Shown here piece after piece: positions 11,015 to 36,367 of a DNA stretch of 64,000 nucleotides (position 1 is the stretch's first letter; every line of letters starts with the position of its first letter). Under the pieces are notes generated by a model. That model was given only the letters and a program-made list of their open reading frames with translations, made no database searches and was not told where the DNA came from. The DNA is taken from positions 124,001 to 188,000 of the forward strand of contig NZ_AP024660.1 of assembly GCF_019977395.1 (NCBI RefSeq). Direction: 5' to 3'. A program made the translations under genes and the position numbers. This stretch comes from Arthrobacter sp. NicSoilC5 (lineage in GTDB: Bacteria > Actinomycetota > Actinomycetes > Actinomycetales > Micrococcaceae).

Positions 11015-11368
11015 TTACTGCCAGATCGTGGCGATGGCGATGTTGACCAGGGCCAGGCCGCCGACGCCGTGCGCGAGTCCGGTGGAGACCGGCTCACCCT
11101 TCTTGACCTTGCGGGATCCGATCACAGCCAGGACGGCAACCACAATGGCGATAACGAACTTGATGCCCAGCTTGGCGTAGTTGGGGTCCTTGTCCGGCAG
11201 GAACGGAAGGATGCCCATCATGGCGATGCCGGTGAGCAGCTGCAGGAAAGCGCCATCACGCTGGCGCGGGTGCACGGTGGGGGTCCGCATCGTGGCGATC
11301 CAGTAGCCCACGATCATGGCCGCGCCCACCACATGGAGGAAAACCAGGATGTTAAAGAGGATAGTCAT
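11015..11368 (-). CDS. Small integral membrane protein
   Basis: A 117-residue protein with four hydrophobic segments (about 4-24, 40-56, 68-86 and 98-116) and short basic loops. The HVVGAAMIVG stretch in the first helix resembles small actinobacterial membrane proteins annotated only as integral membrane protein. It stands alone between the OsmC gene and the E2 terminator. No function can be assigned. Confidence 0.75.
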   Translation of the reverse strand: MTILFNILVFLHVVGAAMIVGYWIATMRTPTVHPRQRDGAFLQLLTGIAMMGILPFLPDKDPNYAKLGIKFVIAIVVAVLAVIGSRKVKKGEPVSTGLAHGVGGLALVNIAIATIWQ

Positions 11369-11444
11369 GGCTCCAGCTTAGCCAGTCAGTTCTACAGCCC
11401 GTAGCAAAGCCACGCTGTCCACCCGTGCCGGGTGCCTGTTAAAC

Positions 11445-22890: not shown

Positions 22891-24999
22891 GTGGCACCCA
22901 GCTCTGAGTACACCGCCCGGCACCTCTCCGTCCTGGAAGGCCTTGAAGCCGTCCGCAAGCGCCCGGGCATGTACATCGGTTCGACCGACTCGCGCGGCCT
23001 CATGCACTGCCTCTGGGAAATCATCGACAACTCCGTGGACGAGGCCCTGGCCGGATTCGGCCACGACATCCGCATCATCCTCCACGCGGACAACTCCGTG
23101 GAAATCCACGACGACGGCCGCGGCATCCCCATCGACAAGGAGCCCAAGACGGGCCTCACCGGCGTCGAAGTGGTGTTCACCAAGCTCCACGCCGGCGGCA
23201 AGTTCGGCGGCGGCTCCTACACCGCGTCCGGCGGCCTGCACGGCGTGGGCGCCTCAGTGGTCAACGCCCTGTCCTCGCGGCTGGACGTCGAGGTGGACCG
23301 GGGCGGCAAGACGTACCGCATGTCCTTCCGCCGCGGCGAACCCGGCCGCTTCAAGGACACCGGTTCCCGCCTGGACCCGGCAGCACCGTTCACGCCGTTC
23401 GTCAACGACTCCGTCCTGGACGTGGTGGGGAAGGCCAAGCGCGGCGTCACCGGGACCAGGATCCGCTACTGGGCTGACCGGCAGATCTTCACCCCGGACG
23501 CCAAGTTCTCCTACGAGGACCTCGTTGCCCGTGCCCGCCAGACCTCCTTCCTGGTGCCCGGCCTCAAGCTCACCGTGCGGGACGAGCGCAAGGTCCCCGG
23601 AACCCCGGGCGAGGCCGGCCCCCACGAAGAGGTCTTCCACCACGACGGCGGCATTTCCGAATTCGTCGAGTTCCTCGCCGCGGACCCGGCCGTCACCGAC
23701 GTCTGGCGGCTGCACGGCGCAGGAAAGTTCAAGGAAACGGTCCCGGTCCTTGACGAACGCGGGCACAGCCAGCTGGCCGAGGTGGAGCGCGACTGCGAGG
23801 TGGACGTGGCGCTCCGCTGGGGGATCGGCTACGACAGCACCGTGCGGAGCTTCGTGAACATCATCGCCACCCCGAAGGGCGGAACGCACCAGTCAGGGTT
23901 CGAACAGGCCCTGATCAAGACCTTCCGCAAAGCCGTGGAGGCCAATGCCCGCAAGCTCAAGGCCGGCAACGACAAGATCGAAAAAGACGACATCTTCGCC
24001 GGCCTGACCGCCGTGCTGACCGTCCGGCTCGCCGAACCCCAGTTCGAGGGCCAGACCAAGGAGATCCTGGGCACCAGCGCCGTACGCGCCATCGTGGCCA
24101 AGGTGGTGGAGCGCGAAATCTCCGCCAAACTGTCCTCCAGCAACCGGAACGACAAAGCCCAGTCGGCACTGCTGCTGGAAAAGATCGTCAACGAGATGAA
24201 GTCCCGCATCTCGGCCCGCGTGCACAAGGAGACCCAACGGCGCAAGAACGCGCTGGAAACCTCCTCGATGCCCACCAAGCTCGCTGACTGCCGGACGGAC
24301 GACGTCGAACGCTCCGAACTGTTCATCGTGGAAGGCGACTCCGCGCTGGGCACGGCCAAGCTGGCGCGCTCTTCCGACTTCCAGGCCCTGCTGCCCATCC
24401 GCGGCAAGATCCTGAACGTCCAGAAGGCCTCGGTGGGGGACATGCTCTCCAACGCCGAGTGCGCGGCCTTGATCCAGGTGGTCGGGGCAGGCTCCGGCCG
24501 CAGCTTCGACATCAGCGCAGCGCGCTACGGCAAGGTCATCCTCATGACCGACGCCGACGTGGACGGTGCCCACATCCGGACGCTGCTGCTGACCCTCTTC
24601 TTCCGGTACATGCGGCCCATGATCCTCGAAGGCAGGGTGTTCGCCGCGGTCCCTCCGCTGCACCGGGTGGAAGTCATCAACGCCGGGCAGAAGGCCAATG
24701 AAATGATCTACACCTACTCCGAGGCCGAGCTCCACGTGCTCCTGGCCCGCCTGGCCAAGGAAGGCAAGCGGTACAAGGAACCGATCCAGCGCTACAAGGG
24801 CCTGGGGGAGATGGACGCCGAGCAGCTGGCCGAGACCACCATGGATCCGCGGCACCGCACCCTGCGCAAGGTGGGAATCGAAAACGCCCAGCAGGCGGAA
24901 GAGATCTTCGACCTGCTGATGGGCTCGGACGTTTCCCCGCGCAAGGACTTCATCATTGCCGGTGCATCCAGCCTGGACCGGGAGCGCATCGACGCCTGA
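22891..24999 (+). CDS. parE: DNA topoisomerase IV subunit B
   Basis: ATPase subunit of a type IIA topoisomerase, 702 residues. The GHKL ATPase domain has DNSVDEA and the Gly-rich GGLHGVGASVVNAL lid; the TOPRIM domain has VEGDSALG (near 481) and DADVDGAH (near 553). The GTG start follows GAAGGAG by 10 bases. It is distant from a recF/dnaN context, and its A-subunit partner is the parC gene on the opposite strand 9 kb away. I therefore call it topoisomerase IV, not gyrase; the two are hard to separate by sequence alone. Confidence 0.9.
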   Translation: MAPSSEYTARHLSVLEGLEAVRKRPGMYIGSTDSRGLMHCLWEIIDNSVDEALAGFGHDIRIILHADNSVEIHDDGRGIPIDKEPKTGLTGVEVVFTKLHAGGKFGGGSYTASGGLHGVGASVVNALSSRLDVEVDRGGKTYRMSFRRGEPGRFKDTGSRLDPAAPFTPFVNDSVLDVVGKAKRGVTGTRIRYWADRQIFTPDAKFSYEDLVARARQTSFLVPGLKLTVRDERKVPGTPGEAGPHEEVFHHDGGISEFVEFLAADPAVTDVWRLHGAGKFKETVPVLDERGHSQLAEVERDCEVDVALRWGIGYDSTVRSFVNIIATPKGGTHQSGFEQALIKTFRKAVEANARKLKAGNDKIEKDDIFAGLTAVLTVRLAEPQFEGQTKEILGTSAVRAIVAKVVEREISAKLSSSNRNDKAQSALLLEKIVNEMKSRISARVHKETQRRKNALETSSMPTKLADCRTDDVERSELFIVEGDSALGTAKLARSSDFQALLPIRGKILNVQKASVGDMLSNAECAALIQVVGAGSGRSFDISAARYGKVILMTDADVDGAHIRTLLLTLFFRYMRPMILEGRVFAAVPPLHRVEVINAGQKANEMIYTYSEAELHVLLARLAKEGKRYKEPIQRYKGLGEMDAEQLAETTMDPRHRTLRKVGIENAQQAEEIFDLLMGSDVSPRKDFIIAGASSLDRERIDA

Positions 25000-25046: not shown

Positions 25047-26039
25047 TCAGCCGAGCAGCCCGGGGACCACAAGCAGTGCGGTGGGCAGCGCCAGGAGCAG
25101 CGCGCAGCCGGCCATGACCGCACTGCGGACGGCCGCCGGAAGCTGGGGCTGCGGCGTCAGGAGGCGGCTGACCCTGGAGGCTGCGGTCCGGACGGCGTCC
25201 GAGCCCGGGCCGCCCGATGCTGCCTCGAGTCCGGACAGGGCCAGCGTGGGGGAGGACGGCCGGATGTCCGTGGTGCCCGCGTTGCCTGCAGAGCCGCTGG
25301 CCACAATGGCGATGGCCTTGATCAGGGTCGCTTTGCTCTCGGTCCGGAGCGCGACGTCGTCGGCCAGCATTTCGATCAGCGAATTCACCGACTCCTGCGC
25401 CATTCGGGTGGTGGGCAGCCATGGAAGGGCCTGCCGCCAGGCTGCGAAGGCCCACAGGAGCAGGTGGTGCCGCTGGCTCAGGTGGGCGTTTTCGTGGATC
25501 AGGACGGCACGCAGTTCGGCCGGTTCAAGGGCCGCCATGAGGCCGTCCGACAGGACGGTCACCGAGCGTGCGCCGCCCGGGAGGCAGTAGGCGACAGGGG
25601 AATCGTGGTTGATGACGAGCGTTCCGGCGCCCTGTGCCGAGGGCGAGGCCAGGAGGGCGAGCAGTTCCCGGTGCCGGCGCCGCTGCCGCTGGATTTTGTA
25701 ATACGTCAGCAGCAGCGTGAAGACCAGGTGGGCCGTGAGCAGTGCGGCAGCGGACAGGGCAAAGATATGCCAGAACCCCAGTGCCGTGGTGGGGGCATTG
25801 AAAAGCACCATGCCGGCAAGGGCGCGCAGCCCCGCAATGAGGTTGTCACCAACTGGTTCCAGGCCGTAGACCAGCATGGCGCCGATCATGGAAAGCCCAC
25901 CTGCGAGCGCGATTGCCTGCCACAGCAGCATGGCCGTGAAGGGTGACCTGGCCGGCCACTGGGCCCGTGACAGGAGGATTGGCACCGGCCAGGCCAGGAT
26001 TATCGCAAGGACCGCCAGCAGGTATGAGGCCCAGAACAT
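25047..26039 (-). CDS. M56-family membrane metallopeptidase, BlaR1-like, no sensor domain
   Basis: Integral-membrane zinc protease of 330 residues with about four hydrophobic segments (1-25, 35-60, 65-110 and near the C-terminus). The catalytic motif is IHENAH (H182, E183, H186), as in BlaR1/MecR1. The protein ends at the last membrane segment (VVPGLLG): the extracellular penicillin-binding sensor domain of BlaR1 is absent. It follows the BlaI-type gene by 6 bases, so the pair is one operon. By analogy it would cleave or trigger cleavage of that repressor; the stimulus is unknown. Confidence 0.9.
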   Translation of the reverse strand: MFWASYLLAVLAIILAWPVPILLSRAQWPARSPFTAMLLWQAIALAGGLSMIGAMLVYGLEPVGDNLIAGLRALAGMVLFNAPTTALGFWHIFALSAAALLTAHLVFTLLLTYYKIQRQRRRHRELLALLASPSAQGAGTLVINHDSPVAYCLPGGARSVTVLSDGLMAALEPAELRAVLIHENAHLSQRHHLLLWAFAAWRQALPWLPTTRMAQESVNSLIEMLADDVALRTESKATLIKAIAIVASGSAGNAGTTDIRPSSPTLALSGLEAASGGPGSDAVRTAASRVSRLLTPQPQLPAAVRSAVMAGCALLLALPTALLVVPGLLG

Positions 26040-26045
26040 GGTGTG

Positions 26046-26429
26046 TTAGAGGTGACCCAGCAGTTTGCGCAGCGTCTCGGCTTCACCTTCGGAGACAGAC
26101 CCGATGAAGCGGGCCAGGACGGCCTCGCGGTCCGGGGCTGACCCAAGGACCTCATGCATGAGTTCGGCGGTGTGGTCTGCACGGCTGGACACTGCCTGGT
26201 ACCGGTGCGGGCGGGTTCCGCGTTCGCGCTCAACCAGCCCTTTCTTCTCCAGGCGGGAAAGTACGGTAAGCACCGTTGTGACGGCCAGTTCCTTGCCTTC
26301 GTGGCCCGGTCCGCCCTGTGCAGCCGACGTGCGCGCCAGCTGGTCCCTCAGGGTATTGGCCGTAGCCGCTTCCTGGCCCGCCCAGAGCAGGTCCATCACT
26401 GCCCGTTCCAGTTCACCAAGACTAGCCAT
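26046..26429 (-). CDS. BlaI/MecI/CopY-family repressor
   Basis: Winged-helix repressor of 127 residues, family length. The N-terminal DNA-binding domain begins LGELERAVMDLLWAGQEA, with the wing near residues 55-80 (GLVERERGTRPHRYQ), and the C-terminal dimerisation helices carry the expected protease-sensitive region. The ATG follows AAAGGA. It is divergent from cydA. Three 17-bp dyads between the two genes contain the CTAC/GTAG half-sites expected for this family. No copper-binding Cys cluster of CopY is present, so a metal-sensing role is unlikely. Confidence 0.93.
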   Translation of the reverse strand: MASLGELERAVMDLLWAGQEAATANTLRDQLARTSAAQGGPGHEGKELAVTTVLTVLSRLEKKGLVERERGTRPHRYQAVSSRADHTAELMHEVLGSAPDREAVLARFIGSVSEGEAETLRKLLGHL

Positions 26430-26532
26430 TTCACTTTTCCTTTATTTCCCCGCACCGTGCGCTGTGAGGCGCCCGGTGACGACACGCGGTTGTTCAACTA
26501 CACAACTAAATTTACCCCTAAACCGCCGAACC

Positions 26533-26549
26533 TTCTACATCGGGTAGAA
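26533..26549. promoter_or_regulatory. BlaI-type operator O1
   Basis: TTCTACATCGGGTAGAA, a 17-bp dyad with 6-base arms, 104 bases upstream of the repressor start. It most likely serves autoregulation. Confidence 0.65.
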
Positions 26550-26600
26550 CATCTGGCGCGCCGCGTCCCGGTGGGCGATCCTTAGGGAGGGTGATCGGTT

Positions 26601-26629
26601 TTCGCCCGCCGTCGACCATGTTCTACACT
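26601..26629 (+). promoter_or_regulatory. Candidate cydA promoter
   Basis: TTCGCC (26601-26606) and TACACT (26624-26629) are separated by 17 bases. The -10 hexamer lies inside operator O2, so bound repressor would block polymerase. A transcript from here would have a leader of about 55 bases before cydA. Confidence 0.5.
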
Positions 26630-26637
26630 GTGTAGAA
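26621..26637. promoter_or_regulatory. BlaI-type operator O2
   Basis: TTCTACACTGTGTAGAA, a near-perfect 17-bp palindrome that includes TACA-N3-TGTA, the half-sites known for BlaI/CopY-type repressors. It covers the proposed cydA -10. Confidence 0.75.
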
Positions 26638-26644
26638 GTTACAG

Positions 26645-26661
26645 TTCTACGAAGCGTAGAA
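26645..26661. promoter_or_regulatory. BlaI-type operator O3
   Basis: TTCTACGAAGCGTAGAA, a 17-bp dyad centred 24 bases after O2 and just downstream of the expected cydA transcription start. Its spacing suggests paired binding with O2 or a roadblock. Confidence 0.72.
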
Positions 26662-26690
26662 AACTGCATTGGCTAACAGTAGGGACTGCC

Positions 26691-28295
26691 ATGGACGCCT
26701 TGGAAATCGCACGCTGGCAATTCGGTATCACCACGGTCTACCACTTCATGATGGTGCCGCTGACCATTGGCCTGGGCCTGGTGGTCGCCGTGATCCAGAC
26801 GGCCTGGTACCGCACCGGAAAGCCCGAGTACCTGCGCATGACCAAGTTCTGGGGAAAGCTCTTCCTCATTAACTTCATCATGGGCGTTGCCACGGGCATC
26901 GTGCAGGAGTTCCAGTTCGGCATGGCCTGGAGCGAGTACAGCCGCTTCGTCGGTGACGTCTTCGGCGCACCGCTGGCCCTTGAGGCACTCCTGGCGTTCT
27001 TCGTCGAGTCCACCTTCCTGGGCCTCTGGATCTTCGGCTGGAAGCAGCTCAAGCCCGCCATCCACCTGGCCTGCCTCTGGGTGGCCGTCATAGGATCAGC
27101 ACTTTCCGCCTACTTCATCATCGTGGCCAACAGCTGGATGCAGCACCCGGTGGGCGTGGAAATGATCAACGGCCGGCCCGTCATGACCGACGCCTGGGCA
27201 GTATTCACCAACAACACCGCCCTCGTCGCCGTCCCGCACACCCTGTTTGGTGCTCTCGCCGTAGCAGGCGGATTCCTCCTTGGCATTGCCTGGTACCACC
27301 TGTGGCGCAGGCGGCACGACGGCATTGACACCGTGGGCGCCGACGGCCGCGTCATCCCCGGTGAAGACGCCCGCATCCCCGGCCGCGACCGCACCGACCA
27401 CAGCGTGTGGATCCGGTCCCTGCGCATCGGCGCCGTGGTGGCCATGATCTCCTTCGCCGGCACCGCGGTCACCGGTGACCTGCAGGGCAAGCTCATGTTC
27501 CAGCAGCAGCCCATGAAGATGGCCGCCGCGGAGGCCGCCTGCCACGACGGCACCGGGTTCTCCGTCCTGAGCATCGGCAACGTGGGATCCAAGAACTGCG
27601 ACGACGTGGTGGCCGTGATCGAAGTCCCCGGCATCCTGTCCTTCCTGGCCAAGGGCGACTTCACCACCGAGGTCCAGGGCGTCAACAGCCTGCTGCCCGA
27701 GTACAAGGCCAACTACGGAACCCACCTGCCGGACAATCCCATCTACGGCGAACGCGCCGGCCAGGAAATCCAGTACGTCCCCGTTATGGAAGTCACTTAC
27801 TGGGGCTTCCGGATGATGATCGGCTTCGGCGGACTCGCCGCCCTGGCGGCACTAGTGGCACTCTGGCTCACCCGCAAGGGGACGGTGCCCGAAGCACGGT
27901 GGCTCATGCGGCTGGCCGTGTTCGGCATCCTGGCACCCTTCGGCGCCAATGCCGCCGGCTGGATCTTCACCGAGATGGGCCGCCAGCCGTTCGTGGTTGC
28001 GCCCAACCCGGATCCCAGCGGCATTGACCAGGTGTTCATGTTCACCGCAGCCGCCGTGTCACCGGGTGTCTCCGCAGGGGAACTGATCGCCTCCCTGGTG
28101 GCCCTGACCGCCGTGTACGCCGTCCTGCTGGTGGTGGAAGTGAAACTGCTGGTCAAGTACATCCGCGGCGGCGTGGTCTCCGCGATGCCGGAACTCGCCC
28201 ATGCACCCGCGGACGAAAACGAGGACCAGACGCCCGGCCCAGGCGGCAACGGGGACACCAAGCCCGCCGACGACGTCCTGGCCTTCGCCTACTAA
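26691..28295 (+). CDS. cydA: Cytochrome bd oxidase subunit I
   Basis: Quinol-oxidising, haem-bearing subunit of the bd-type terminal oxidase, 534 residues and about nine membrane segments. The N-terminus (ALEIARWQFGITTVYHF) contains the high-spin-haem His, the quinol loop motif QQPMKMAAAEA is present, and GRQPFVV marks the conserved region after the Q loop. The C-terminal 30 residues are hydrophilic and Pro/Asp rich. It is first in cydA-cydB-cydDC. The start follows AGTAGGGA. Regulation by the divergent BlaI-type repressor is likely from three dyads upstream. Confidence 0.97.
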   Translation: MDALEIARWQFGITTVYHFMMVPLTIGLGLVVAVIQTAWYRTGKPEYLRMTKFWGKLFLINFIMGVATGIVQEFQFGMAWSEYSRFVGDVFGAPLALEALLAFFVESTFLGLWIFGWKQLKPAIHLACLWVAVIGSALSAYFIIVANSWMQHPVGVEMINGRPVMTDAWAVFTNNTALVAVPHTLFGALAVAGGFLLGIAWYHLWRRRHDGIDTVGADGRVIPGEDARIPGRDRTDHSVWIRSLRIGAVVAMISFAGTAVTGDLQGKLMFQQQPMKMAAAEAACHDGTGFSVLSIGNVGSKNCDDVVAVIEVPGILSFLAKGDFTTEVQGVNSLLPEYKANYGTHLPDNPIYGERAGQEIQYVPVMEVTYWGFRMMIGFGGLAALAALVALWLTRKGTVPEARWLMRLAVFGILAPFGANAAGWIFTEMGRQPFVVAPNPDPSGIDQVFMFTAAAVSPGVSAGELIASLVALTAVYAVLLVVEVKLLVKYIRGGVVSAMPELAHAPADENEDQTPGPGGNGDTKPADDVLAFAY

Positions 28296-28334
28296 CCGCA
28301 TCCGGCTCCAAAGACCGAGCAGAGGAAAAACACA

Positions 28335-29384
28335 ATGGAACTGCTGCCCACCATCTGGTTCATCGCCATCGCGGTGCTGTGGACCGGCTACCTCTTCCTG
28401 GAGGGCTTCGACCTGGGCGTCGGGATGCTGATGAAGCTCTTCGCCCGCAACAACACCGAACGCCGCGTGCTCCTGAACACCATCGGGCCCGTCTGGGACG
28501 GCAACGAGGTGTGGCTGCTGACTGCAGGCGGTGCCACCTTCGCCGCCTTCCCGCTCTGGTATGCGTCCTTGTTCTCCGCGCTCTACCTGCCGCTGCTGGT
28601 GGTCCTGCTTGCCCTGATCTTCCGTGCCGTGGCGTTTGAGTACCGCGGCAAGGTGGACACCGACAGCTGGCGGAACCGTTGGGACTGGGCCATCGCGCTG
28701 GGCTCCTTCTTCGCCGCCTTCGGCGTGGGGGCCGCCCTGGCCCTCACCACCACCGGCCTGCCGCTGAACGTCAACGGCGACCGCGAGGGCGGCCCCATGG
28801 CCTGGTTCAGCGGCTACGCCCTTCTTGGCGGCGTGGCGGTAGTGGGGTTCTCCCTCCTGCACGCCTTGGCCTTCCTGGCCCTCAAGACCGACGGGGACGT
28901 CCGGCACCGGGCCCGCCAGTGGTTCGTGCGGCTCCTGCCGGTACTGCTCCTGCCCATCGCGGCATGGGCACTCGCCATCCAGTTCATGGACGGCAAGCCC
29001 TGGACCTGGGCCGCCGTCATCCTGGCCGTAGGCGCCGCCATCACTGCCTGGCTGCTGGCACGGAGGGGTTCTGAAGGCAGGGCGTTCCTGGCCCTCGGCG
29101 GCTTCCTGGTGCTGGGCACCACCGCCATCTTCGGCGCCGTGTTCCCCGTGGTGCTGCCCTCCACGCTGGACAGTGCCTTCGACCTCACCATCTCCAACGC
29201 ATCCTCCTCGGACTACACCCTGGGACTGATGAGCATTGTGGCGGCATTCGGCCTTCCCCTGGTGATTGCGTACCAGGCATGGACCTACTGGGTGTTCCGC
29301 CGCCGGGTGAGCGCCGCGCACATCCCGGAAGCCCACAGCTTCCTCCCGGCGGTCGCCGCCAGGGCCTTCACCACCAAGGGCTGA
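28335..29384 (+). CDS. cydB: Cytochrome bd oxidase subunit II
   Basis: CydB of 349 residues with about eight or nine membrane segments. The conserved start MELLPTIWFIAIAVLWTGYL and the GFDLGVG and GPVWDGNEVWL motifs are diagnostic. It pairs with CydA to form the bd oxidase, which reduces oxygen with high affinity without pumping protons. It is 39 bases after cydA with AGAGGAA before the ATG, and the next gene begins within 2 bases of its stop codon. Confidence 0.97.
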   Translation: MELLPTIWFIAIAVLWTGYLFLEGFDLGVGMLMKLFARNNTERRVLLNTIGPVWDGNEVWLLTAGGATFAAFPLWYASLFSALYLPLLVVLLALIFRAVAFEYRGKVDTDSWRNRWDWAIALGSFFAAFGVGAALALTTTGLPLNVNGDREGGPMAWFSGYALLGGVAVVGFSLLHALAFLALKTDGDVRHRARQWFVRLLPVLLLPIAAWALAIQFMDGKPWTWAAVILAVGAAITAWLLARRGSEGRAFLALGGFLVLGTTAIFGAVFPVVLPSTLDSAFDLTISNASSSDYTLGLMSIVAAFGLPLVIAYQAWTYWVFRRRVSAAHIPEAHSFLPAVAARAFTTKG

Positions 29385-29385
29385 C

Positions 29386-32300
29386 GTGCGCCCAACTTTC
29401 CCCGCCGGTCCGTCCACCCGCTCAGCGATCTATTGGCTGGGACTCCTGGCCGCGCTCAAGGCGCTGTCCCTGGTCCTGATCGGGCAGGCAGTGGCCTCCG
29501 TCCTGGCGGGACTGGTTGCCGGAAACCCGGCGTGGGGGAGCCAGCTGACCGCCGGACTTGCCGGCGTCGTCCTCCGCTCCCTGACCGTGTGGGGCCAGGC
29601 CGTCGCTGCACGCCGCGCGGCGCTGGGCGTGAAGGAGGAGCTTCGCGCTGAGCTGCTGGAGCGCGCCCTGCGCACCGGTGTGCGCGGATCCGGCCCCGGC
29701 GACGGCGGCCTGGCGGTCCTCGCCACCCGCGGCCTGGACGCCCTGGACAGCTACTACACCCAGTTCCTTCCCGCACTGGTCAACTGCGCGGCCGTTCCGC
29801 TGCTGCTGGGGGCCCGGATTCTCTTCGCGGACTGGGTGAGTGCGCTGGTCATCGTGCTGACGGTGCCGCTGATCCCGGTGTTCATGGTGCTGATCGGCCG
29901 GTACACCGAGGACAGCGTGTGGCAGGCCCAGGCGTCGCTGGCACGGCTCTCGGCGCACATGCTGGAGCTGGCCAAGGGCCTGCCGGTCCTGGTGGGGCTG
30001 GGCCGCGCCACCGCCCAACGCAAGGCCCTTGAAGAGATTTCGGAGGAATACCGCTCGCGCACCATGGGCACTTTGCGCACCGCGTTCCTGTCCGCGCTGG
30101 CCCTGGAACTCATCGCCACCATTTCGGTGGCAGTGGTGGCCGTCTTCATTGGCGTCCGGCTGGTCCATGGTGACATGCCGCTGGAGGCCGGCCTGCTGGC
30201 GCTCATCCTGGCGCCGGACTGCTACCTTCCGCTGCGCGAACTTGGCACCGCCCACCACGCCAGCGACGACGGCAGGGTGGCGCTCGCGGAAACAGCCGCC
30301 GTGACCGGGGCTCCCGAGGCTGCACCCCTGCCCGCTGCCAAGGCCGGCAGGCCCGGCGCTCCCTTGGAGGTCACCGGACTCACCGTGACGTATGCCGGCC
30401 GGTCCGGAGCCGCCGTCGGGCCCCTCACGTTCACCGCACCGCAGGACAGGATTACCGCCCTGGACGGCCCCAGCGGCGCCGGCAAGAGCACCGTCCTGGG
30501 CGTTCTCGCCGGAACGGTCGGCGACGGCGGCGGGACCAGTATTACCGGGTCCACCAGCGGACTGGACCGCCGCGCGGTGGCCTGGGTGCCGCAGCACCCC
30601 GTCATGGTGGCCGGAACCGTCCTGGACGAGGTGCTGCTCTACCTCTCACTGGACCCCGGGCACGGCCCGGACAGGTTCACCGCCGAGGAGGCTGCGCGGC
30701 GCTGCCTGGAACGCGCCGGCGCCGGGCACCTGGCAGCAAAGCACCAGGCGGAACTGAGCCCGGGCGAGCTGCGCCGGGTCGCACTGGCCCGCGGCCTGGC
30801 CCGGATCGAGGCCGGCGCCACCCTCCTGCTGCTCGACGAACCCACCGCACACCTCGATGACGCGTCCGCCGTGATCGTCGAGGACGCCATCCGCCGGCTC
30901 CGTGGCCAGGTCACCGTGATCCTGGTGGCCCACAACCAGCGCACCCGGCAGCTGGCGGACCTGCTGGTGCCGGTGGCGCCGGCGCCGGGGGCCGACGCCG
31001 TAGCCCACCAGGAGGGTGCTGCTGCCGCGTTGCTGCCCGCCACCATGCCGGCCACCCTTCCTGCCGGCCCGGCAGGAGGCCGCGCGGCAGACGAGGGGGC
31101 ACCGGACGTCGCTTCCACGGACCTCCCCGCCACACGAAACCCGGCCGCGGGCGCCCCCGCACAGGCTGCCCCCGGCGCCGCCCGCCTCCTGGCCGCCCTC
31201 CTGGCACCGGTCCGGGGCAAGTTCGCCGCAGCGGCCTTCGTCGGCACCCTGGCAGCCGTCTTCGCCGTCGCGCTTTCCGGCCTGTCCGGCTGGCTCATCA
31301 TCCGGGCCAGCGAACAACCACCCATCCTGTACCTCCTGACCGCCATCGTCGGCGTCCGGTTCTTCGGCATTGGCCGGGCTGTGTTCAGGTACTGGGAACG
31401 GCTGCTGCTGCACGATGCCGTGTTCGCCGCACTCACGCGCCTCCGCGGCCGCCTCTGGGAGTCGCTGAGCCGCAGGGCCCTGTCGCTGCGCCGGCTCCTG
31501 CAGGGCGGCAACGTGCTGGGAACGGTGATCGACGACGTCGACACTGTCCGGGACCTCCTGCCGCGCGTGGTCCTGCCGCCCGTCACGGCGCTCGTGGTGT
31601 CCATCCTGGCCGTGGCAGCCACAGGCATCCTGGTGCCGGACGCCCTTCCCGCCGTGGTGGGAGCTGCAATTGCCGGGCTGCTGCTGGCACCTGCCGCCGC
31701 CCTGTGGGGCGACCGCAAATCCGCCGCCGCCGAGCAATCCCTGCGGTCCGTCGTCCTGCGCCGCGTCACCGCTGCCCTCGATGCCCGGGCCGAACTGCAC
31801 GCCAACGGCGTGGCGCCCCGCGTGCTTGACGCCCTGCTGGCGGAGGACCGCCATGCCACGCGCGCATCGCAGCGCTCCGCCTGGGCCGACGGGCTGGGAC
31901 ATGGCGTCGCCACCGCAGCCTGCGGCACGGCAGCCCTGGCGGCCGCGTGGCTGGCCGCCCCACGCGTCGTCTCGGCCCAGGTGGCCCCGGCGACGGCGGC
32001 CGTGGTGGTCCTGCTGCTGCTCGCGCTGGTGGAACCCTACGCGGCGATGACGACGGCGGTGCGCCAGTACCCCGCGCTGCGTTCCGTCCTGCGCCGGGTG
32101 GGGGAGTCCGGGGCCCTTGACGGGGGCGGGATCCCTGACGGAGGCCGGACCCCTGGCGGCGGAGAAACCCCCGAGGGCCTGCAGCCTGTTCCCGCCAGGG
32201 CCGGGAATGCGCCAGGCGTTGAACTGGTGGGTCTGGCCGCGGCATGGCCGGGCGGCTCTCCGGTCTTCTCCGGCGTGGATGCCGTGGCAGTCCCGGGACG

Positions 32301-32868
32301 TTGGCTGGCGGTCACCGGACCGTCCGGTTCCGGCAAATCCACGCTGCTCTCGGTGCTGCTGGGCTTCCTGCCACCGGCATCCGGTCAGGTCATGGTCACC
32401 GGCCGGGCTGCCTGGTGCCCCCAGGAGGCCCACCTGTTCGATTCCACCATCCGGGGAAACCTGCTGCTGGGACGGCCCGCCACCAACGGCGCGACTCCGG
32501 CAGGGGACCACGACCTGGAGGCCGTCCTGGCCGCCGTCGGACTCTCCGCGCTGGTGGGCCGGCTGCCGGCGGGGCTGGACACCCGGATCGGGCCCGGCGG
32601 TGCCTTCCTGAGCGGCGGCGAGCGCCAGCGCCTGGCGGTAGCGCGGACCCTGCTGACGGGCGCGGAAGTGATCCTGCTGGATGAACCCACAGCGCACCTC
32701 GATGCCGGATCCGCGGCTGCCATGCTGTCCGACCTGCGCGCCGGACTGCGGGACCGCACCGTGGTGCTGGTAACGCACAACCCGGCTGACATCCACGCCG
32801 GCGACGCCCGGCTGGAGCTTGCAGCCTCCGCCGGACAGCCCCGGGGATCCCTGGCGCCCTCGCGCTGA
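29386..32868 (+). CDS. cydDC: Fused CydD-CydC thiol-reductant ABC exporter
   Basis: ABC exporter of 1160 residues that carries both halves of the CydDC cysteine/glutathione-type exporter needed to assemble cytochrome bd. The CydD half has a membrane domain (about 15-300) and an ATPase domain with Walker A GPSGAGKS (near 361), signature LSPGE (near 454) and LLLLDEPTAHLD. A Pro/Ala-rich linker (about 525-600) leads to the CydC membrane domain and a second ATPase with GPSGSGKST (near 977), LSGGERQ (near 1074) and LLDEPTAHLD. The GTG starts 1 base after the cydB stop codon, so it is in the same operon. Confidence 0.95.
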   Translation: MRPTFPAGPSTRSAIYWLGLLAALKALSLVLIGQAVASVLAGLVAGNPAWGSQLTAGLAGVVLRSLTVWGQAVAARRAALGVKEELRAELLERALRTGVRGSGPGDGGLAVLATRGLDALDSYYTQFLPALVNCAAVPLLLGARILFADWVSALVIVLTVPLIPVFMVLIGRYTEDSVWQAQASLARLSAHMLELAKGLPVLVGLGRATAQRKALEEISEEYRSRTMGTLRTAFLSALALELIATISVAVVAVFIGVRLVHGDMPLEAGLLALILAPDCYLPLRELGTAHHASDDGRVALAETAAVTGAPEAAPLPAAKAGRPGAPLEVTGLTVTYAGRSGAAVGPLTFTAPQDRITALDGPSGAGKSTVLGVLAGTVGDGGGTSITGSTSGLDRRAVAWVPQHPVMVAGTVLDEVLLYLSLDPGHGPDRFTAEEAARRCLERAGAGHLAAKHQAELSPGELRRVALARGLARIEAGATLLLLDEPTAHLDDASAVIVEDAIRRLRGQVTVILVAHNQRTRQLADLLVPVAPAPGADAVAHQEGAAAALLPATMPATLPAGPAGGRAADEGAPDVASTDLPATRNPAAGAPAQAAPGAARLLAALLAPVRGKFAAAAFVGTLAAVFAVALSGLSGWLIIRASEQPPILYLLTAIVGVRFFGIGRAVFRYWERLLLHDAVFAALTRLRGRLWESLSRRALSLRRLLQGGNVLGTVIDDVDTVRDLLPRVVLPPVTALVVSILAVAATGILVPDALPAVVGAAIAGLLLAPAAALWGDRKSAAAEQSLRSVVLRRVTAALDARAELHANGVAPRVLDALLAEDRHATRASQRSAWADGLGHGVATAACGTAALAAAWLAAPRVVSAQVAPATAAVVVLLLLALVEPYAAMTTAVRQYPALRSVLRRVGESGALDGGGIPDGGRTPGGGETPEGLQPVPARAGNAPGVELVGLAAAWPGGSPVFSGVDAVAVPGRWLAVTGPSGSGKSTLLSVLLGFLPPASGQVMVTGRAAWCPQEAHLFDSTIRGNLLLGRPATNGATPAGDHDLEAVLAAVGLSALVGRLPAGLDTRIGPGGAFLSGGERQRLAVARTLLTGAEVILLDEPTAHLDAGSAAAMLSDLRAGLRDRTVVLVTHNPADIHAGDARLELAASAGQPRGSLAPSR

Positions 32869-33826: not shown

Positions 33827-36367
33827 CTACTCCGCGGCGTCCCCTGCTGCTGCGGCGTCCCCTGCTGCGCCGCCGTCCATCCACGCCATGGCCGGGCCCA
33901 CTACCTCCACGGCCTGGGAGAGCGGGACGCCCGAGCCGTCACGGCGGCCGTGTTCCTGCGGCAGTGACCGCGCCACTCCGCCGGCGGAGGACGCCTTGGC
34001 CGGCCCGTGGCCCGCCCACGCGAGGAGCAGCATGTCCTCGCCCTTGAGGAACCGGTGCGACCGGACCCCTGCAGTGGCACGCCCCTTGGCCGGATATTCG
34101 GAGAATGCGGTGACCTTGGCCGTGCCCGGGGCGGTGCCTGGGAGGGCGCCGTTGGTCCCGGCGATGGTGACCACGACGGCGGCCTCGTCCTGGGGCTGTA
34201 CGGCACCAAAGAAGATCACCTGGTCACCCGCGGCCAGTTTGATCCCGGCCATGCCGCCGGCAGTGCGCCCCTGGGGACGGACCACGGCTGCGGGGAACTT
34301 CAGCAGCTGTGCTTCCCGGGTGAGGAACACCAGTTCGGTGTCATCGGCCCCGGCCGGAGCGACTCCCACCACCACGTCCTTGTCCTTCAGAGTGATGACT
34401 TCCCAGTCTTCCCGGTTCAGCGGGTAGTCCGGCTGGACCCGCTTCACCACGCCCTGCGCGGTGCCGATGGCCAGGACTTCATCCAGCCGCACGAACGCCA
34501 CCAGGGACTCACCCTTCACCAGGGTGAGGAACTCCTTGGCCGGCACGCCGCCGGCCAGGTTGGGCAGGCCGGCCACAGGAGGCAGGACCGGCATGTCCAT
34601 GACCTGCAGCCTGAGCATCCGGCCCTGCGAGGTGACCGCCGCGATTTCGCCGCGGGCCGACGTCTTGACCACCGAGGTGTACACGTCGTGCCTGCTCCGG
34701 GGCCCTGCCTCGGCCAGCGGTTCCTGGGTGCTGGTGCGTGCCACCTGCCCGGAGGCGGTGAGGATGGCCCAGCAGGGGTCGTCAGCGATCTCGAGGGACA
34801 GCGGCGCAGCCTTGCCCTTCTTCGCCCCGGCGAGCTCGGCAGCGGCGACGGTGGGGGACACGGCCTCGGACTCCAGGAGGACCGTCCGGCGCGGGGTGCC
34901 GTGTTCCTCGGCAATCGCACCGAGTTCGTCGGAGACCACGGTGCGCAGCAGTTCCTCGGAGTCCAGGATGGCCTGGAGTTCCGCGATCTCGCGGCGCAGC
35001 TCGTCCTGCTCCTTCTCCAGCTCGATCCGGGAGTACTTGGTGAGCTGCCGCAGGCGCAGTTCAAGGATGTAGTTGGCCTGGACCTCGGTGAGGTCGTAGA
35101 TGGACATCAGCCGCTCGCGGGCCGCCGCGGCCTCGTCCGAGGACCGGATGATCTGGATGACCTCGTCGATGTCCACGATGGCGATGAGGAGGCCCTCCAC
35201 CAGGTGCAGGCGGTCCTTCTTCTTGCCCAGGCGGAAAACGGTGCGGCGACGGACCACGTTGATCCGGTGGTTGACGTACACGGACAGCAGGTCCACCAGG
35301 CCCAGCGTCTGCGGCTGGCCGTCCACCAGGGTGACGTTGTTGATGCCGAAGGAGTCCTCCATCGGCGTGTACCGGTAGAGCTGCTGCAGCACGGCGGTGG
35401 GGTTGAAGCCGTTCTTGAGCTCGATGACCAGCCGCAACCCGTGCTTGCGGTCGGTCAGGTCCACGATGTCGCTGATGCCGGTCAGCTTCTTCGCATTGAC
35501 CGCATCCTTGATCTTTTCGATCACCTTTTCCGGGCCCACCATGTACGGCAGTTCCGTGACCACCAGTCCGGTGCGGCGCGCGGAGAGCTGCTCGATTTCC
35601 ACCTTGGCCCTGGTCTTGAACGAGCCGCGGCCGGTGGCGTAGGCGTCGCGGATGCCGTCCAGGCCCACGATCCGGCCACCGCTGGGCAGGTCCGGGCCCG
35701 GGACGAACCGCATGAGGTCATCCAGGGTTGCGTCGGGGTTGGCGATCAGGTGCCGGGCGGCGGAAATGACCTCCACCAGGTTGTGCGGGGCCATGTTGGT
35801 GGCCATGCCGACGGCGATGCCGGTGGCGCCGTTGACCAGCAGGTTGGGGAAGGCGGCGGGGAGGACGTCCGGCTGGGTCAGCTGGTTGTCGTAGTTGGGG
35901 ACGAAGTCCACCACGTCTTCGTCCAGGTGGTTGGTGAGCGTGAGGGCGGCCGCCGCCAGCCGGGCCTCGGTGTACCGCGGTGCTGCCGGGCCGTCGTCGA
36001 GCGAGCCAAAGTTGCCGTGCCCGTCAATCAGGGGCAGCCGCAGCGAAAAGCCCTGCGCCATGCGCACCATGGCGTCGTAGATGGCGGCGTCACCGTGCGG
36101 GTGCAGCTTGCCCATGACTTCGCCCACCACGCGCGCACTCTTGACGTGGCCGCGGTCCGGGCGCAGGCCCATGTCGCTCATCATGTACAGGATGCGGCGC
36201 TGTACCGGCTTCAGGCCGTCCCGGGCGTCAGGCAGGGCGCGCGAGTAGATCACCGAGTAGGCGTACTCCAGGAACGAACCCTGCATCTCGGACGTGACGT
36301 CGATATCGACGATGTTCTCCGTGTAGCTGTCGTCCGCGATGGGCGTTGAATTCTGGCGGCGGGCCAT
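33827..36367 (-). CDS. parC: DNA topoisomerase IV subunit A
   Basis: Type IIA topoisomerase breakage-reunion subunit of 846 residues. The QRRILYMM region, the [12 protein letters not shown] quinolone-determining segment and the catalytic tyrosine Y132 in APRYTEAR are all visible, followed by a coiled-coil region and a C-terminal beta-pinwheel (about 510-800). The tail is Ala/Gly/Asp-rich. The position equal to E. coli GyrA Ser83 is alanine (A94). It partners the parE gene. Called topoisomerase IV rather than gyrase because the pinwheel lacks a clear GyrA-box (QRRGGKG). Confidence 0.88.

Follow-up and report, generated by a model that had tools for sequence, protein, structure and literature searches.

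The window analyzed here is a stretch of 64,000 nucleotides from Arthrobacter sp. NicSoilC5 (assembly GCF_019977395.1, contig NZ_AP024660.1, positions 124001-188000), whose genome is represented by one contig of 4.69 Mb. Two divergent operons occupy its positions 25047-32868 (Table 1), the leftward one comprising blaI and the gene of a membrane protease, and the rightward one comprising cydA, cydB and cydDC, the last of which is a single 1160-aa ORF where a CydD match is followed by a CydC match. The gene identities proposed by an earlier, sequence-only reading of this DNA (BlaI, M56-type protease, cydA, cydB, cydDC) agree with the Pfam/NCBIfam matches, as do the coordinates with the divergent order and the 261-base region shared by blaI and cydA (26430-26690) that it had described. 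The cluster is flanked by what appear, by eye, to be genes of DNA gyrase/topoisomerase IV subunits B (22891-24999) and A (33827-36367), and gyrase/topoisomerase-like neighbors of blaI (also named by eye) are seen in several other genera.

Table 1. Features of the blaI-protease/cyd divergon and of a second candidate operator site (positions within the window).
Feature	Position	Strand	Remarks
BlaR1-like M48/M56 membrane zinc protease	25047..26039	-	330 aa, without penicillin-sensor domain
BlaI-family repressor	26046..26429	-	127 aa; PF03965, E 9.9e-21, 74.7 bits vs. cut-off of 22.6
Dyad O1, TTCTAC-ATCGG-GTAGAA	26533..26549	.	perfect; blaI side
Dyad O2, TTCTAC-ACTGT-GTAGAA	26621..26637	.	perfect; cydA side; contains conserved TACACT
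Dyad O3, TTCTAC-GAAGC-GTAGAA	26645..26661	.	perfect; cydA side
cydA, cytochrome bd subunit I	26691..28295	+	PF01654, E 8.3e-154
cydB, cytochrome bd subunit II	28335..29384	+	PF02322 and TIGR00203 above cut-off
Fused cydDC, ABC exporter for bd assembly	29386..32868	+	TIGR02857 and TIGR02868 above cut-off
One-mismatch dyad TTCTACAGCCCGTAGCA	11390..11406	.	precedes the gene of the 117-aa protein by ~22 nt; candidate operator outside the divergon
117-aa small membrane protein	11015..11368	-	candidate regulon member; 83% identical to L093:3048-3401

The repressor is the only full-length PF03965 match of the genome (accompanied by one partial match of 53 positions), and all of its residues (127/127, 100%) are identical to those of the BlaI of Pseudarthrobacter phenanthrenivorans SWC37. 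The only solved chain that it matched in a single-sequence search is 2g9w (E 2.5e-15), recorded as a “conserved hypothetical protein”, which we take to be the BlaI of M. tuberculosis (Rv1846c). Its Phe108, invariant in 13 sequences, aligns with Phe102 of the S. aureus BlaI (1sd4), which is cleaved at Asn101-Phe102. The neighboring protein is a membrane HExxH zinc protease of the BlaR1 fold, scoring 38.6 bits against PF01435 (Peptidase_M48; cut-off of 20.3) and 21.6 bits against PF05569 (Peptidase_M56), the latter being below the gathering score of 31. Pfam gives peptidase models only, with no penicillin-binding sensor domain in the 330 residues, and the match to BlaR1 ends at residue 293 of the 556-residue chain, before the sensor; as this C-terminal domain is lacking, the protease has not been filed as a BlaR1 receptor. 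Its Cys152, part of an AYCxP motif located 30 residues ahead of HExxH, is near-invariant in the class-wide set.

The three perfect TTCTAC-N5-GTAGAA dyads that the sequence-only reading had placed in the shared gap, at 26533, 26621 and 26645, were found there, including the one on the repressor side (O1), and the centers of O2 and O3 are 24 bp apart. With up to two mismatches tolerated, the window holds five matches to the pattern, with shuffles averaging 0.21 and 0/100 of them reaching five, and the genome-wide search that the same reading had proposed returned eight perfect sites (three of them in the blaI-cydA gap) vs. two of the reversed pattern. The shorter TCTAC-N5-GTAGA also occurs eight times in the genome (reversed control: six) and is flanked by T and A in 8/8 cases. 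While a chance origin of the dyads is ruled out by the shuffles and reversed controls, the reversed control is the larger one at up to two mismatches genome-wide (191 vs. 66 for the true pattern), so only the perfect sites and, cautiously, the one-mismatch ones (some of which may be due to chance) carry weight, and two-mismatch sites were dropped as candidate operators. Reading the dyads as terminators was likewise abandoned, as there is no terminator-like site in the blaI-cydA gap. The overlap of one dyad with the cydA -10 is something that we infer: the first bases of O2 include a TACACT that is conserved across the alignment of 31 gaps (counting that of the window) and could serve as the cydA -10, but the promoter scan returned no sigma-70-like promoter in the gap.

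The earlier reading had named a lack of conserved dyads upstream of cydA in related genomes as a refutation, and this test was passed: in 79 of the 80 named relatives, cydA is divergent from blaI within the fetched stretch and two to three perfect dyads lie in between (three in 68 loci, two in 11), and cydA genes unlinked from blaI keep theirs as well (see below). The blaI-cydA gap does not exceed 450 bases in 78/79 of these loci and amounts to 3.8 kb in the other one (L269), where one dyad is found near blaI and two near cydA; in the eightieth relative (L268), a single dyad lies at blaI and the fetched stretch is devoid of cydA. The geometry of the cydA-proximal pair is similarly well preserved, its dyads being 23-26 bp apart, center to center, in 79/79 named loci (24 or 25 bp in 72). 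Identity to the window across the 31 aligned gaps (window included) is 100% for the half-sites, 68% for the spacers and 52% for the rest, with the half-sites of O1 identical in 31/31. Each of the 25 same-genus genomes holds six to nine perfect dyads (reversed controls: 0-3), and no perfect dyads were found in the 14 genomes that the same draw took from the order's other families.

Across the family (149 genomes drawn), BlaI is present at E <1e-20 in 127 genomes, represented by a weak match only in four and without a match in 18. The 127 BlaI genomes contain 684 perfect dyads (a mean of 5.4, vs. 60 and a mean of 0.47 for the reversed control), at least two being present in 123 of them, with only one in G081, G098 and G140 and none in G127, where both BlaI and cydA are present. 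The weak-BlaI group has four dyads (one per genome), and the 18 BlaI-less genomes have two (one each in G096 and G184). Dyad counts follow the presence of BlaI (rank test, p = 4e-12, for genomes that are not independent), and the 18 BlaI-less genomes all belong to genera g17, g20 and g28, thus representing few losses rather than 18 independent ones. Within g28, two BlaI genomes have one and zero dyads and the five BlaI-less genomes have none. As such a co-loss contrast cannot by itself name the binding protein, another regulator lost together with BlaI (e.g., one of the Rrf2/NsrR type) might be what binds the dyads, with BlaI being only a neighbor, and an Rrf2-type gene does lie beside hmp at several of them. 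This is nevertheless held to be unlikely: dyads are found upstream of blaI itself where cydA is distant or was not found (L086, L101, L141), they track BlaI inside genus g20 (one dyad in each of the two genomes with BlaI, none in the five without it), and a TACTAC-N5-GTAGTA variant of the dyad is also located beside blaI in other families.

The association with cydA was approached in the same manner. Where both genes are present, blaI and cydA are divergent and within 1 kb of each other in 114/120 genomes; in five of the exceptions (G042, G182 with two loci, G146, G079 and G103), the unlinked cydA is preceded by two perfect dyads at 6/6 loci, and the sixth (G072) has two dyads at its cydA (L083) plus one at its blaI (L086). 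No dyad better than three mismatches was found upstream of cydA in any of 11 BlaI-less genomes, while the single dyad of the weak-BlaI genomes lies upstream of cydA in the three examined (of four), and 7/149 family genomes combine BlaI and 3-15 dyads with no cydA match. As far as sequence comparison goes, the dyads are tied by these results both to BlaI and, apart from gene linkage, to cydA.

The dyads are not confined to cyd. In the source genome, the other perfect dyads adjoin hemQ-hemH-hemC, a phosphatase gene with resA and ccdA behind it, hmp together with an Rrf2-type regulator gene, a PNPOx-like gene, and the gene of a 145-aa membrane protein (for the source genome's own copy of which there is no Pfam family). 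Sites with one mismatch number six: one precedes an ATP-synthase-associated gene and atpB, another an ABC pair with ctaA behind it, and the others qcrC, sucC, a small membrane gene that neighbors an mca-like one, and the gene of the 117-aa membrane protein located within the window. HemQ and the Cg1360-family ATP-synthase-associated protein score above the NCBIfam cut-offs; the gene names of this candidate regulon are partly our own reading of the sequences. The one-mismatch site upstream of the Cg1360-family gene, for which there is a perfect atp counterpart in G046 (L136), matches the operon reported for mycobacterial BlaI in PMC12565901.

That BlaI is a dedicated cyd repressor, the other genomic dyads being mostly incidental, could be argued from the fact that three dyads are found only at cyd in the source genome, every other perfect site being single. 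Recurrence of the other targets makes this very unlikely: in four same-genus genomes, 18/18 fetched non-cyd dyad regions correspond to the five non-cyd perfect targets of the source genome; haem dyads recur in 9/12 and hmp dyads in 7/12 genomes of other genera; and dyads are kept in BlaI genomes where no cydA was found. The regions fetched from the 12 other genera number 62 and contain 75 perfect sites; 13 of the regions are at blaI or cyd and 49 elsewhere, and 32 of these 49 are next to genes of haem synthesis, globins, oxidase assembly, cytochrome c or ATP synthase, according to labels that were assigned post hoc and partly by eye, for sites that may serve either neighbor. The classes are led by haem synthesis (9), hmp (8) and copper/CtaG-type oxidase assembly (6, with a CopC, CopD or CtaG model above the cut-off only in L094 and L143), followed by the ABC pair that in the source genome precedes ctaA (4), group III truncated haemoglobin (2; L085 labeled via one solved relative, 2ig3, E 1.1e-6, and L102 by eye) and resA, ctaC and atp (1 each). 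The remainder consists of 145-aa-type membrane proteins (4), PNPOx (2) and others (11), the last of which adjoin genes without an obvious respiratory role, one of them (L093) being the ortholog of the 117-aa protein of the window. The claim that the BlaI pair controls cyd is supported by the conserved dyads, but was too narrow, as haem, globin, oxidase-assembly and ATP-synthase genes are marked too; their regulation by BlaI is a prediction.

The L093 ortholog, which belongs to another genus (G056) and has no Pfam family above the cut-off, is accompanied by a perfect dyad at L093:3000-3016, and small membrane proteins weakly similar to the 117-aa protein are located behind the TACTAC variant in family f32. 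The membrane protein of the 145-aa type (116-171 aa as called) occurs behind perfect dyads in five genera, mostly near a MATE-type gene (L007:3881-4318, L089, L099, L132, L139, L145, L152, L155, L158).

Since beta-lactam resistance is the setting in which the BlaI and M56 families are chiefly known, it has to be asked whether the pair responds to beta-lactams and affects respiration as well. The statement of the sequence-only reading that no beta-lactamase gene is present holds beside the blaI locus and fails for the genome, which has a single PF13354 (Beta-lactamase2) gene at about 3.974 Mb; the M. tuberculosis BlaI, moreover, is reported to control blaC along with respiratory genes (PMC5473688). 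In the 3.4 kb around the PF13354 gene, however, no dyad better than three mismatches was found, and beta-lactamase control was dropped as a reading, this being the sole candidate beta-lactamase gene. The fold match of the 330-aa protease, as described above, stops before the BlaR1 sensor, and 0/49 of the regions in other genera were labeled as beta-lactamase (a few regions being without a label). Measured against a regulon of the mycobacterial type, the source genome has dyads at cyd and ATP-synthase genes and lacks one at a beta-lactamase gene, and a beta-lactam-responsive system is regarded as quite unlikely.

In the class as a whole (296 genomes drawn), a BlaI match with an E-value of 0.001 or lower is found in 180 genomes. 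Of 46 BlaI loci that were read (the 26 best newly fetched matches and 20 chosen by us), 33 have a cydA-like ORF in the fetched stretch; cytochrome-c-maturation genes are found in L199 and L200, and cydDC in L205. The operator in some families appears as TACTAC-N5-GTAGTA, which is present in 53/296 genomes of the class draw and, among the matches listed, lies no more than 200 nt upstream of a BlaI gene in twelve genomes. It is also found at unlinked cydA genes in G301 and G412, and at genes of small Rieske and small membrane proteins in family f32. When 20 chosen TACTAC regions were compared with the source set by tblastn, six matched a gene of the latter (cydA in L312, L320 and L323; Rieske in L315, L316 and L318) and 14 did not, including all seven (L324-L330) from three g55 genomes of family f19; with counts near the control and 7/7 regions unmatched, TACTAC was dropped as a regulon mark in genus g55. 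The small Rieske [2Fe-2S] proteins are encoded just behind the variant in three f32 genomes (L315, L316, L318), the Pfam match pertaining to L315 and L316. At residue 54 of BlaI, Leu accompanies the TTCTAC dyads and Met the TACTAC-type ones across 13 aligned sequences, a pattern confounded by kinship, to which there is an exception (L201, Met54 type, with no such dyad shown). A putative, dedicated regulon of respiration and haem genes is marked in several families of the class.

The reading that we consider probable is that BlaI, bound to these dyads, represses cyd along with haem and respiration genes, and that cleavage by the M56 protease relieves this repression upon a respiratory, haem or redox signal. 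A BlaI dimer would occupy each TTCTAC-N5-GTAGAA dyad, the two dimers on O2 and O3 blocking cydA transcription and the one on O1, judging from its position, serving blaI autoregulation, while the dyads elsewhere would place hemQ-hemH, hemA/hemE, oxidase assembly, cytochrome c maturation, flavohaemoglobin and ATP synthase in the same predicted regulon. The sensor-less BlaR1-like M56 protease, by analogy with its family, would cut BlaI near Phe108 and thereby cause derepression. As for the signal, respiratory, haem or redox state may be the most likely one, rather than a beta-lactam; the target list points in this direction, and so does a transposon screen in which blaR of M. tuberculosis was essential with haem as the iron source (PMC7058343). 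A more far-reaching possibility, which we put forward tentatively and would not yet favor, is that BlaI with a sensor-less M56 protease was ancestrally a respiration/haem switch of Actinomycetia, to which beta-lactamase control was added later as a side role, and that the protease senses respiratory, haem, NO or redox state, possibly via Cys152, which in sequence is near its zinc site.

Cytochrome bd is also known to be controlled by Rex and CRP. To our knowledge, no other cyd regulator works by the membrane proteolysis of a BlaI-type repressor. SenX3-RegX3 has been linked to cydB control in published work, and it resembles the BlaI of the source genome, just like Rex and CRP, in controlling cytochrome bd, but all of these belong to different protein families. 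The S. aureus BlaI-BlaR1 and MecI-MecR1 systems share the repressor family, the protease fold and the conserved Phe at the cleavage position with the pair described here, whereas the S. aureus BlaR1 has a penicillin-binding sensor domain that the source protease lacks, and the S. aureus targets are resistance genes.

The M. tuberculosis BlaI-BlaR system (Rv1846c-Rv1845c) is similar in the 2g9w match, the sensor-less BlaR, and the cyd and atp targets: its BlaI is stated to bind at the promoters of cytochrome bd and ATP synthase (PMC5473688, citing Sala 2009), the BlaR orthologs there are also without a sensor domain (PMC5473688), and BlaI represses the Rv1303-atp operon, although knockdown of the M. 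smegmatis BlaI did not raise ATP (PMC12565901). Because of these mycobacterial reports on BlaI at cyd and atp, the core idea has precedent. The source system differs from the mycobacterial one in that blaI-M56 is divergent from cydAB-cydDC, no dyad is found at a beta-lactamase gene, the operator is TTCTAC-N5-GTAGAA, and the marked set centers on haem, globins and oxidase assembly. No description of such a regulon in Micrococcaceae was found among the listed literature matches (titles and the beginnings of abstracts, with few subscription journals covered), and, as far as these searches show, what is new consists of the divergon with cydABDC, its operator, the set of haem, globin and oxidase-assembly genes, and the tests by BlaI co-loss and by unlinked cydA.

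Routine annotation presents BlaI and M56 proteins as regulators of penicillin resistance, and, if they mainly serve respiration and haem in this large bacterial group, many of these annotations are misdirecting. If the proposed reading is true, it would add a mode of sensing respiratory state by proteolysis at the membrane, together with a clear operator by which further regulons might be predicted, and the signal of the sensor-less BlaR protease would become directly testable in harmless soil bacteria.
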